A model generated the notes under the pieces. It saw only the letters and a program-made list of their open reading frames with translations, searched no databases and had not been told where the DNA came from. From Bacteriovorax stolpii (lineage in GTDB: Bacteria > Bdellovibrionota > UBA2428), in assembly GCA_945881775.1 (NCBI GenBank), contig CAMCVE010000011.1, positions 1 through 64,000 on the forward strand: DNA of 64,000 bases. The letters are read 5' to 3'. Below are positions 1,658-5,718 of this stretch, piece by piece. The number at the start of each line of letters is the position of its first letter. Within the stretch, counting starts at the first letter, position 1. The translations under genes were made by a program, and so were the position numbers.

Positions 1658-2329
1658 TCAAGAAGCGCGACGGCGCATCTGCGGCAATTTTTTGATCAAT
1701 AGCCACAGCACAAAGATCACCAGCACCGCCAATATGACGATCTTCACAACCTTGAAGTTCTCGAGAATCACGTCACCATAGATTCCCAATAGAATAATTT
1801 GCGTGGGCACTGTCAGAAGAGCCGCAGCACCATCGACCGCGATGAACTTCCAGATAGGCACACCAAGAAGACCACAGGCCATATGCCCAGGAAATCGCAA
1901 ACCTGGAGTGAAGCGAAAGATACCACTCGCCCAAGCTCCGTATTTGGCCGTCCAAGCTTCTGCCTTTTGAAAACTTTTAGATTGATGCCACTTTTCGAAA
2001 CGTGGGTTCCCTCGAAATCGTTTGCCGATGAATTTACCGATAAAATAAACCAACAAATCACTGGATAGGACGGCAAAGAACGCTACAGCAGCAAGGACCC
2101 ACATATTGACCGCATTAGGACCTGCCCCTTCCGGGATAGGATAGTTCTCAGGATTGTGTGCGATGTGCGCCACTAGCCCCGAGGCAACAAGCGTCACTTC
2201 CTCTGGAAGCGGAAATCCGAAGCTGCTGATGAACATGAGGCCTACAACAGTGAGATAGACCCACATGGGCTCGTAGGCTTTGTCAGCGAACCACTGAATC
2301 AACTCTTGCTCCGTAACTCCAATCATCAT
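1658..2329 (-). CDS. DedA/SNARE-associated family membrane protein
   Basis: About 223 residues from the first of two adjacent ATG codons (2329 or 2326). A GGAG-type ribosome site lies just upstream; a longer frame upstream of this is non-coding looking. Hydrophobic segments flank the family motif FGFPLPEE near the N-terminus and the central RFTPGLRFPGHMACG, which matches the conserved arginine/glycine-rich re-entrant region of DedA proteins. The C-terminus ends in a long membrane helix and a basic tail. DedA proteins are inner-membrane carriers linked to undecaprenyl-phosphate or phospholipid translocation and proton-motive-force maintenance. It is divergent from the subtilase gene across about 220 bases. 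Confidence 0.85.
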   Translation of the reverse strand: MMIGVTEQELIQWFADKAYEPMWVYLTVVGLMFISSFGFPLPEEVTLVASGLVAHIAHNPENYPIPEGAGPNAVNMWVLAAVAFFAVLSSDLLVYFIGKFIGKRFRGNPRFEKWHQSKSFQKAEAWTAKYGAWASGIFRFTPGLRFPGHMACGLLGVPIWKFIAVDGAAALLTVPTQIILLGIYGDVILENFKVVKIVILAVLVIFVLWLLIKKLPQMRRRAS

Positions 2330-2551
2330 CGCGCTCCGATCATAGACTCGCACTTCACGGAAACACGAGCTGTCGTTCGGCCAAACCGAGCCCTTGACGC
2401 GGAGCGCAGTGCTCGCAAAACAAAAGACTCGCCGCGCCACAACTCACAAGTGCCCGGCCTCCTTAAAAAAATGTACAGAACTATTAACTCCACAACGACG
2501 CTTGAAGGGGAGAGAAGTTTCTGCGGCGGATTCGAAGAAAGGATTTTGGCA

Positions 2552-4147
2552 ATGGCAAATTTGGCGACACGGACCTTCACCCTTAGCACTCTACTGGTAG
2601 GTGCCCTTTCGATGAGCGCTCAAGCGCAAGTCGTAAACAGCCGAGTCCTCGTCATCGACGAAGGTGCCGACCTGCAGCACAAAGAGCTCACGACCCAAGC
2701 CTTTACGAATTCGGCCGAGCAAAGCGGCCTTTCGGGAGTCGACGACGATCGCAATGGATTTGTTGACGATGTTTCAGGATGGAACGCCATCAGCAACGAC
2801 GCGTCTTACTTTCCTCAATGGGTGAGAAAGATGTTCGTCGACAATGTCGACACCATTGCAAAGCTGCTTGCGCTCTACAACCGCGTTGAAGAAGGTGATC
2901 AGTCCGCAGTCGAAATCATTCGTGCCAATCCCAATGTCGGGCAGGCTCTCAATGCGATTCTTGGCCATAGCCATGGTACTCATGTCGCAGGTATCGTGGT
3001 TCGTTACGGTAATGCAAACGCACAGGTCGCAAGCCTCAACGTCTTCACCCAAAGCGAAGAGCCACAGGCACCCGGAGAAAATGATGGCATGACCCGCCCC
3101 TCACTCTCGCAACGTATGAGCGTGGGAAATCCCTTAGCGCGCATGAAACGACTCATCCGCAGAAATCTCGCCTCAGTATCGGAGTCTGCAGTCGAGACCC
3201 CCACTGCCAAGCCTTTCGTATCCCAATTCGACGATACGGCAGGAGTAACCGCCTTTCTGACTCAGATGCGTTCCGAAGAAGGCACTGAAAAACGCCTTCT
3301 CTCTCGCTATATTCTTGCGACCCGTCCTCGAGTGGCAAACCTGAGTCTCGGTTCAGCAAAAATCGGAATCCGTAAGGCTCTCGATTCCATGTGGCAAGAG
3401 GAGCTGATCACAGCCAAGCTCCCCCTCAGCACACCAAGAACGGCTCTCCAGGAGAAGAACTTCCAACGAATGCTGAACGAGACCTTCGAGATCTTCCGCA
3501 CGTCGTGGAATGAACTCTTCCGCGCAAATTCTGGAACTCTTTTCGTGATCGCTGCTGGCAACGATGCCGATGACCTCGACGTTCCCGATGCAGGAAACAA
3601 CGGCATCAACGAAGTGCTTCCAGCGAACTGCTCTAAGGACAACGCCAACGTCATCACGATCGCCGCATCGACTCCCGATGGCCTGATCGCGGATTTCTCG
3701 AACTACCACTCCACACTGGTTAACGTTGCGGCATGGGGCACAGCGGTTCCCTCATTGGCCCCCAACAACAACACCGTCAAGATGAGCGGAACCTCGATGG
3801 CGTCTCCCTATGCAGCCGGACTCGCGTCTAAGCTCTTGTCAGTGAATGCCCGCCTCTCGCCAGCGCAGACACGTCAGATCATGGAAGGGACAGTCAAGAA
3901 GATCGCTTCCCTGAAAGGTCGTGTTTCTAGCGACGGAATGGTCGACCCCCAAGCTGCACTGGATGCCGCGCGCCGGACACTTCTCACGAACAATGTTGAG
4001 GTCGCAATTCGGGACGCCATCCAAGCTCGCAATACAACGCTAGGCATGCCCCTAATTTTGGGCCGTCTTCCCTTTGCGAGTGACGATGAAACTCGTATCG
4101 GCCAAGTCCACAAGACTCCCGATCTGGTCAAAGCTTTCATGCGCTAG
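2552..4147 (+). CDS. Secreted subtilisin-like serine protease (S8 family)
   Basis: Start chosen at 2552 because a clear signal peptide (MANLATRTFT..., cleavage near AQAQ) begins there after an AAGGA site; the frame upstream lacks coding character. The mature enzyme has the catalytic triad Asp36 (VLVIDEG), His141 (SHGTHVAG) and Ser415 (SGTSMASPYAAG). The oxyanion Asn is in AAGNDADD. Between His and Asn lies an unusually long insert of about 200 residues. No separate propeptide is obvious, since the catalytic Asp is only about 10 residues after the signal peptide. It is predicted to degrade proteins in the periplasm or outside the cell. A hairpin terminator follows. Family assignment is very secure; substrate is unknown. 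Confidence 0.93.
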   Translation: MANLATRTFTLSTLLVGALSMSAQAQVVNSRVLVIDEGADLQHKELTTQAFTNSAEQSGLSGVDDDRNGFVDDVSGWNAISNDASYFPQWVRKMFVDNVDTIAKLLALYNRVEEGDQSAVEIIRANPNVGQALNAILGHSHGTHVAGIVVRYGNANAQVASLNVFTQSEEPQAPGENDGMTRPSLSQRMSVGNPLARMKRLIRRNLASVSESAVETPTAKPFVSQFDDTAGVTAFLTQMRSEEGTEKRLLSRYILATRPRVANLSLGSAKIGIRKALDSMWQEELITAKLPLSTPRTALQEKNFQRMLNETFEIFRTSWNELFRANSGTLFVIAAGNDADDLDVPDAGNNGINEVLPANCSKDNANVITIAASTPDGLIADFSNYHSTLVNVAAWGTAVPSLAPNNNTVKMSGTSMASPYAAGLASKLLSVNARLSPAQTRQIMEGTVKKIASLKGRVSSDGMVDPQAALDAARRTLLTNNVEVAIRDAIQARNTTLGMPLILGRLPFASDDETRIGQVHKTPDLVKAFMR

Positions 4148-4179
4148 TAACGCGCAGTCGCCTCTAAGCGCCCATAGTC

Positions 4180-4218
4180 AAAAAGCCTCTCCCGCCTAAA
4201 AGCTTGGAGGGGCTTTTT
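4180..4218 (+). terminator. Rho-independent terminator after the subtilase gene
   Basis: A stem formed by AAAAGCCTCTCC and GGAGGGGCTTTT, with one wobble position, is followed by a run of T. It starts about 30 bases after the subtilase stop codon. Confidence 0.8.
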
Positions 4219-4243
4219 TCATGTCGAACTCGTACAACCTCGG

Positions 4244-4409
4244 CTCACTACACCCGTTCGTCACTTTTTGATTAATTTTCGATCGAAGATCCTTACCTAA
4301 TTCCTTCATCTTAGGAAAACCGGGGATGCGCCGTTCCGTGCGTCATCTTCATCGCGATCATTTTAAAACGCGCGGAATTAATCAAAAAGTGATGAACAAG
4401 CGTAGTGAG
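4244..4409. repeat. 34-nt imperfect inverted repeat enclosing 98 nt in a convergent intergenic gap
   Basis: The left arm (4244-4277) and the reverse complement of the right arm (4376-4409) agree at 30 of 34 positions. The inner 17 bases match perfectly (core CACTTTTTGATTAATT), and all four differences are transitions. The gap 4148-4467 is 320 bases long and lies between the ends of the subtilase (+) and the nucleoside transporter (-), so it holds no start-proximal control region. I found no convincing reading frame inside the 98-base interior. The arms could be the ends of a small non-autonomous element or a folded 3' RNA structure. Confidence 0.75.
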
Positions 4410-4467: not shown

Positions 4468-5718
4468 CTAGGAGATGAGACCCACAATCGCGGCCGTCAT
4501 GAAAGTCGCTAGGTTTCCGGCGATCATGCAACGGATACCGAGCTGAGCCAATTCGCTGCGCTTGTTGGGAGCCATGGCTCCGATACCGCCGATCTGAATA
4601 CCGATTGAGGCGAAGTTGGCAAAACCACACAGAGCATATGAGGCGATAATGAGAGTGCGCTCTGAGAGGGCTGCTTTGGCTTCGGCCATGTGAACGTAGG
4701 CCACGAACTCATTCAAGACGACTTTCTCTCCAAGCCATTCCCCAACAAGCTTCGACTCGCCCCAAGGAACGCCCATGAGCCACGAAAGAGGCGCAAAGAA
4801 AAACCCCAAGACTCGTTGGAAAGTGATCGGCTCGGGAGAGCCGAGAGTCGTACTTGCCCATCCAAGGCCGAAGTTCGCGAGGGCAATCAGGGCGATAAAC
4901 ACAATCAGCATCGCGGCAACATTGAGAGCAAGAGCCAGACCTTCTGAGGCACCCCGCGCGGCGGCTTCGATCACATTCGTGTCGATTTTCTCAACGGGAA
5001 CATCCACGCCACCCATGGTTTGGGGCACGCCTTTTTCAGGAACCATAACCTTCGCGATGAGAAGCCCGGCTGGGGCCGACATGACACTCGCCGTGACAAG
5101 GTGGCCGGCAATTGAGGGCAAATGATCGTGCAGAAGACCCACATAAGCCGCGAGCACACCGCCCGCCACCGAAGCCATTCCTGGCACCATGATGGCGAAG
5201 AGCTCAGAGCGCGTCATGTTTGCGAGGAAAGGTTTTACGAGGAGAGGTGCCTCTGTCTGACCCACAAAAATATTCGCTGCTGCTGCGAGCGACTCGGCCC
5301 CACTGGTTTTAAGGGTGCGTTCCATAATCTTGGACATCCAACCCACCACCCGCTGCAAAACGCCCAGATGATAGAGGACTGCGACCAGAGAAGAAAAGAA
5401 GAGGATCGTTGGCAACGCGCGGAAGGCAAACACGTAACCGTGCTTATCTGAGCTCATCAGGCTTCCGAAGACAAACGCCGCGCCTTCATCAGAGAAGCCG
5501 AGCAAACGGTCAACGGCCGAATTGATGAACTCGAAGAGAAAGCCAAGCACCCCTGGCACTCCTAAAACCGGAATTCCCAAAATCAAAATCGCGATCGTAA
5601 ACTGGAGAATCCCACCCCACATCACCACGCGCCAAGGGAAAATCTTGCGATCTTCGGAACAGAGCCAAGCGAGGAACACGAAAACAACGAGACCGAGGAG
5701 CGGGATCATCTGATTCAT
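4468..5718 (-). CDS. nupC: Concentrative nucleoside transporter (CNT/NupC family)
   Basis: This 416-residue polytopic membrane protein has about ten hydrophobic segments. It carries the family signatures NIFVGQTEAPLLVKPF and MTRSELFAIMVPGMASVAGG in the middle, and the conserved LCGFANFASIGIQIGG region near the C-terminus. CNT proteins take up nucleosides with protons or sodium across the inner membrane. It lies only 6 bases downstream of the gamma-glutamyltransferase gene on the same strand, so the two are probably co-transcribed and together would salvage peptides and nucleosides. Specificity for purines or pyrimidines cannot be read from the sequence. Confidence 0.9.
   Translation of the reverse strand: MNQMIPLLGLVVFVFLAWLCSEDRKIFPWRVVMWGGILQFTIAILILGIPVLGVPGVLGFLFEFINSAVDRLLGFSDEGAAFVFGSLMSSDKHGYVFAFRALPTILFFSSLVAVLYHLGVLQRVVGWMSKIMERTLKTSGAESLAAAANIFVGQTEAPLLVKPFLANMTRSELFAIMVPGMASVAGGVLAAYVGLLHDHLPSIAGHLVTASVMSAPAGLLIAKVMVPEKGVPQTMGGVDVPVEKIDTNVIEAAARGASEGLALALNVAAMLIVFIALIALANFGLGWASTTLGSPEPITFQRVLGFFFAPLSWLMGVPWGESKLVGEWLGEKVVLNEFVAYVHMAEAKAALSERTLIIASYALCGFANFASIGIQIGGIGAMAPNKRSELAQLGIRCMIAGNLATFMTAAIVGLIS

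Follow-up and report, generated by a model that had tools for sequence, protein, structure and literature searches.

An inverted repeat between converging genes of Bacteriovorax stolpii that appears to belong to an undescribed family of repeat-spreading elements

MITEs, including Correia-type repeats, and TIMEs are short elements with terminal inverted repeats. In two other systems, dispersed repeats are partnered by a gene. TIRYT genes are RAYT-type transposase genes flanked by long terminal inverted repeats (TIRs), and families of TIRs are dispersed as well (PMC3733652, PMC6006769); REPINs combine two REPs in inverted orientation and are linked with RAYT transposases (PMC3116915). The TIRYTs listed in PMC3733652 keep the HUH motif and the catalytic tyrosine. 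REPINs and TIR repeats are both explained by a tyrosine transposase; a described counterpart with a helix-turn-helix (HTH) protein was not found in the open-licence papers searched. Here we describe an inverted repeat from B. stolpii that seems to be one of a family of repeat-spreading elements not described before, whose full form would be an HTH gene between two long arms.

The window analysed, a stretch of 64,000 nucleotides, comes from a genome of 2.3 Mb in 34 contigs that is 94.94% complete. Within it, a preliminary description had noted 34-nt arms around a 98-nt gap between converging genes, with 30 of 34 positions matching, every mismatch a transition and the inner 17 positions identical. 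Both the placement and the details of the match are borne out, as follows.

2306–4147, + strand: neighbour outside the element, a subtilase-family protease (Peptidase_S8, 4.6e-28), whose true start is probably further in than 2306
4244–4277, + strand: left arm of the inverted repeat, 34 nt, one of 8 arm copies in the genome
4257–4263, + strand: left arm, first putative protein-binding half-site, TTCGTCA, 11-bp lag
4268–4274, + strand: left arm, second putative protein-binding half-site, TTGATTA, 11-bp lag
4278–4375, no strand: 98-nt interior between the arms, with no relation to the sequences that the other short copies enclose
4376–4409, − strand: right arm of the inverted repeat, 34 nt, one of the 8 arm copies
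4379–4385, − strand: right arm, second putative protein-binding half-site, TTGATTA on the − strand
4390–4396, − strand: right arm, first putative protein-binding half-site, TTCATCA on the − strand
4468–5718, − strand: neighbour outside the element, a CNT-type nucleoside transporter (Nucleos_tra2_C, 4e-76)

In the arm consensus of this genome the putative half-sites agree at 5 of 7 positions, one short of the 6 required for counting. The arms themselves, 88% complementary with four mismatches, form the first entry among the inverted repeats listed for the window and lie far beyond chance: the pair scores 22 (+1 per match, −2 per mismatch), and 970 random placements in the same window reach at most 12. 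The inner 17-mer occurs at two sites in the window, both in the arms, against a chance expectation of 0.10 with up to 3 mismatches. Either strand of the element folds into a long hairpin (+ strand, −70.2 kcal/mol, z −8.0; − strand, −69.4 kcal/mol, z −6.7), a trivial consequence of the inverted repeat being present. No curated Rfam family scores above threshold; the one match, SECIS_1 (E 2), has 16.9 bits where the gathering score is 35. This sub-threshold match (4167–4230, − strand) overlaps a separate hairpin at 4179–4219, which has an A-run before it and a T-run after it (AAAAAGCCTCTCC...GGAGGGGCTTTTTT), is absent from a terminator scan restricted to loops of 3–8 nt and is probably the subtilase terminator.

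Searching the genome for further copies of the arms, as the preliminary description had proposed, yields eight arms, two in the window and six elsewhere, that form four inverted pairs. The three pairs outside the window are these.

Contig C22, locus L014, 1872–2033: short pair, arms complementary at 33/33 positions, 98-nt interior
Contig C17, locus L015, 1920–2078: short pair, arms complementary at 29/30 positions, 99-nt interior
Contig C7, 46330–46909 (L016, 1331–1910): gene-enclosing pair, arms complementary at 31/34 positions, 512 nt between the arms

The preliminary description had counted unique arms and transcripts that do not fold against its own readings; the arms recur, and both strands fold. 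Interiors of the three short pairs, 98, 98 and 99 nt when the same inner boundary is applied, are not significantly alike (p 0.07–0.17 in direct orientation, with one reversed comparison at p 0.03), and the window interior has no match in the rest of the genome (E up to 1) beyond an extension of at most 16 nt adjoining an arm. The fourth pair, on C7, has an Xre-type HTH gene inside it (HTH_31, 3.9e-9; HTH_3, 4.2e-9), and the reading frame of this gene continues into the right arm. Directly past that arm, at L016 1912–2016, stand short direct repeats (ATGAGCCTGGGGTCAAGA, ACGAGACTGCGGAA).

This arm sequence, common to four loci that include the surroundings of an HTH gene, speaks against one alternative, namely that the repeat has no link to the C7 gene and either terminates transcription in both directions or is a plain RNA hairpin. 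Its strong fold and its position between convergent 3′ ends are what a terminator would call for. In addition to the shared arms, the scan of loops of 3–8 nt counts against it, with 0 terminator-like sites; no T-run follows the stem, one lying inside it, and the subtilase already has a T-run hairpin of its own at about 4179–4219; we regard this explanation as very improbable.

The arms are absent from the three other genomes of family f1 searched, which counts against a mobile family, and a covariance model built from the short copies, three in number, gave nothing better than E 0.3 against 58 relatives under strict filters. Viral contigs hold no match to the arm pattern, and the nine plasmid records that matched each cover at most 18% of the query. 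Two isolated candidates were set aside: an arm-like match in the relative G039, unaccompanied by an inverted partner within the surrounding 1.5 kb, and a single match among GTDB contigs (Flexilinea flocculi), likewise unpartnered in 1.5 kb, where about one was expected by our own chance estimate.

The gene enclosed on C7 belongs to a wider family. When 368 genomes of the phylum were searched with a single sequence and with a profile, a cut of our own placed 26 members of this family in 20 genomes, the C7 member included, among the matches listed; four weaker profile matches among those listed, which start at profile positions 26–39 (G353, G352, G150 and G202), were left out. Members have a C-terminal HTH in common and a poorly conserved N-terminal region (alignment A5, n = 24), the first part of which is missing from the shorter C7 protein. 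All 24 aligned members match both HTH_3 and HTH_31. For the first member, the listed Pfam, NCBIfam, PHROGs and PADLOC matches all lie over the HTH, as do the best 60 of 102 solved-structure matches. An IS5 transposase model is matched by one member (0.0016), HTH_Tnp_4 by one (0.0023) and MobT relaxase by 14 (best 1.3e-6), the last covering only positions 2–47 of 383 in the first member; we read all of these as matches to the HTH. In all, the 24 members match 15 Pfam families, none of them a Y1 family, and an HUH-like motif occurs in one of the 24 sequences and is not conserved. With single-sequence queries, proteins of this family were not found in viral contigs, plasmids or phages.

Several lines of evidence tie this gene family to paired arms. 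First, most members are enclosed as on C7. Scored by the best inverted repeat whose two arms stand on opposite sides of the gene, 19 of 25 testable members score at least 14 and 16 of 25 at least 17. Those in alignment A5 account for 18 of 23 testable members, with scores of 14–43; of two later members found by profile, L203 has a 25/26 repeat (score 23) and L204 has none, and L092, cut by a contig end, stands outside the test. A flanking repeat is absent in 6 of the 25. Among 1410 control placements in real stretches of 12 other genomes, 23 reach 14 and only an N-run reaches 17; 870 shuffles give a maximum of 14. Thirteen loci that match mainly over the HTH (L083–L085, L088, L205–L209 and L211–L214) reach at most 13; L089, scored separately, gives 10, and L087 and L210, at a contig end, were not used as controls. 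The three lowest-scoring enclosed members (L075, L078 and L090, 14–16) fall in a range that 1–2% of control placements also reach.

Second, the arms differ from gene to gene. They stand 479–733 nt apart and vary in sequence from genome to genome, and where one genome has two or three such genes, each has a separate arm set, two of which resemble each other in G130. Protein and arm similarity correlate weakly and not significantly (Mantel rho 0.155, p 0.10), which counts against such a tie. By eye, the arms of L069 and L070 each have a palindrome within them (GTCGG...CCGAC) and then a tail, a REP-like form unlike the other arms; each REP is itself palindromic with a GTAG-type foot, and by eye most arms, those of the window included, are not palindromic. 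TIRtrons, too, have one gene flanked by long TIRs whose sequence varies with the species, and their TIRs may overlap the gene ends (PMC3733652).

Third, the arms of enclosed genes recur away from the gene. We searched 17 arms in 12 source genomes and took 55 loci around the matches listed, mostly where two matches stood close together; at the chosen threshold, 45 of these hold an inverted pair or cluster, nine a single arm and one none. Inverted pairs occur in 9 of the 12 genomes (G349, G043, G366, G053, G130, G367, G127, G115 and G358), in addition to the window's own. Among the loci taken, G115 and G358 have one dispersed pair each and G061 single arms only; none was found in G094, nor in G109 among the matches listed. 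TIRs likewise recur as dimers or clusters in some genomes (PMC3733652). The loci taken hold at least one to eight pairs per arm set, against many hundreds of REPs per genome in PMC3116915. As in the REPINs described there, the doublets are dispersed, extragenic, inverted and able to form hairpins, there is a gene per repeat type, and the spacer is less conserved than the repeats. Two local arrangements were also seen. G127 carries nested arm arrays (L168, 917–1207, and L169, 237–455) of three forward and then two to three reverse arms, mostly 53–55 nt apart, about a centre. By eye, a second hairpin type (CACTGGCCCATTTTGGGATTTGGCATT...) resembling the arms of the main pairs lies near them in the right flanks of L143 and L146 of G366, in intergenic DNA rich in CCGGTACCGG-like runs.

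Interiors are unrelated within these genomes too: 3 of 178 comparisons give p < 0.01 and 14 give p < 0.05, the three being reversed-orientation matches in G130, so no recent copy is seen. Interior length is nevertheless characteristic of the genome (Kruskal p 3e-5, 7 repeat families). Arms conserved while interiors are unrelated, together with this set length, are what the main rival to a mobile element would predict. In that reading, a regulon, selection maintains the arms as sites for the protein or as hairpins, in RNA or as cruciforms. Through them the HTH protein would regulate its own gene and act at the 3′ ends of target genes, and the interiors would drift. The arms, however, change between genomes, and the HTH gene stands in unrelated neighbourhoods.

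Placement and variation within the arms bear on the regulon as well. Twenty of 38 elements lie between converging genes, against 12 of 60 in the background (p 0.002), and 3 of 38 between diverging genes, against 17 of 60. These counts come from a crude ORF caller and a hand tally of 38 of 49 elements, ten having been dropped for an overlapping ORF and one for a missing neighbour; at least L157 was probably miscalled, as divergent instead of co-directional. The bias towards the space between converging genes would suit control at 3′ ends and also, in the proposed element family, units lying past gene ends. Variants common to both arms of a pair exceed chance in G349 (permutation p 2e-4) and G043 (p 1e-3), as a regulon with functional hairpins would have it, but show no excess in G366, G053, G130 or G367a, or in the window's genome (p 0.12). 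They are compatible alike with selection on a hairpin and with correction between arms. The bases immediately beyond the two arms of an element do not pair clearly better with each other than with those of other elements in the same genome (p 0.07; 0.17 with G-U pairs), which again speaks against a regulon, and we judge that reading rather unlikely overall. The long-range RNA fold suggested in the preliminary description may yet apply, two of the seven repeat families tested having arm-shared variants far beyond chance; the fold itself adds little, being what any inverted repeat gives.

Many arms carry two similar half-sites in tandem. Such half-sites at lags of 7–11 reach 6/7 in 10 of 95 arm-lag tests, where about 1.5 are expected, and at lag 5 in 3 of 19, where 0.4 are expected, with the proviso that the pattern had been spotted ahead of the test and that some arms depend on one another; the window's genome has 5/7 at lag 11. 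Two tandem half-sites would suit binding by an HTH protein.

Neighbourhoods of the enclosed genes differ, the neighbours being unrelated housekeeping genes. Among 19 neighbours of 13 enclosed genes there is no transposase or Y1 match; with one short-pair neighbour added, 5 of the 20 proteins have no Pfam match and the sole recurring type is an HD-domain protein, seen twice. The G366 HTH element at L081 1351–1948 lies between urocanase (hutU-like) and aromatic amino acid lyase (hutH-like) genes on the same strand. At one G130 element, L157, the syntenic intergenic stretch of the congener G358 holds no counterpart (one comparison, at about 70% identity); the empty-site search covered four G130 loci and gave this one congeneric match, and matches to L158 in two other genera, where the hairpin is absent, were not used as empty sites. 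Scattered sites and this one apparent empty site suggest that the elements have moved. Across 53 elements, target-site duplications show no excess over random places (mean 2.96 versus 3.12 in controls), and none stands out at the window element, in agreement with the preliminary description. With neither a duplication nor common interiors, movement would have been old, slow or unusual.

The same observations divide the preliminary reading of a MITE-like small mobile element. The short size, the terminal inverted repeats and the recurrence of the arms, one pair of which encloses a gene whose relatives are mostly repeat-enclosed, fit that reading; the lack of an interior common to the copies and of a target-site duplication does not. 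The window arms are shared with the C7 HTH-gene element, which is no known transposon. A related alternative makes the arms the terminal repeats of a classical insertion sequence that lost its transposase, with the HTH gene carried as a passenger, in the manner of a MIC or TIME. The size of the element, its terminal repeats and its location between genes would fit, as would a C7 interior gene with no recognised transposase domain. One HTH family coupled to differing arms in many genera is not expected of a chance passenger, however, and common interiors, duplications and a transposase among the 19 neighbours tested are all missing, which makes such a relic improbable.

We consider it probable, by a modest margin over an even chance, that the inverted repeat of the window is a non-autonomous copy, lacking a gene, from an element family that in full form has two long arms around a single gene of the Xre-type HTH kind. 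Here the C7 element would be the full form, and the three dispersed short forms would include that of the window. The HTH protein would bind the arms, many of which have two tandem half-sites 7–11 bp apart (here TTCATCA and TTGATTA, 11 bp), and the paired arms could form a hairpin by folding or extrusion. Once an arm pair is recognised, short arm-interior-arm units could spread or persist in intergenic DNA past gene ends, on the model of REPINs with RAYT transposases and TIR repeats with TIRYTs; cutting activity might come from a host enzyme or from the uncharacterised N-terminal region. As far as sequence can tell, the design is the REPtron/TIRtron architecture and the protein is not. Unlike a TIRYT, it combines an Xre-type HTH with that N-terminal region, has no conserved HUH motif and matches no Y1 family; unlike a REPtron, the system has no RAYT (no Y1 match) among the 24 members or the 19 neighbours; and no HUH or tyrosine transposase is recognised. 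Our reading is therefore of a system designed like a REPIN or a TIRtron whose movement is old or unusual.

More tentatively, and with the balance still against it, these elements may form a distinct class of bacterial mobile element, whose sole gene encodes a small, fast-evolving HTH protein and which spreads itself and gene-less arm pairs without a recognisable transposase, each lineage with its own arms. It would be a third repeat-gene partnership beside RAYT-REP and TIRYT-TIR. If true, an HTH-based repeat system would mean that a DNA-binding protein, with host enzymes or a new catalytic domain, can keep or spread paired repeats. Nineteen candidate genes carry their presumed recognition sequences at their flanks, so their binding specificity is directly testable.
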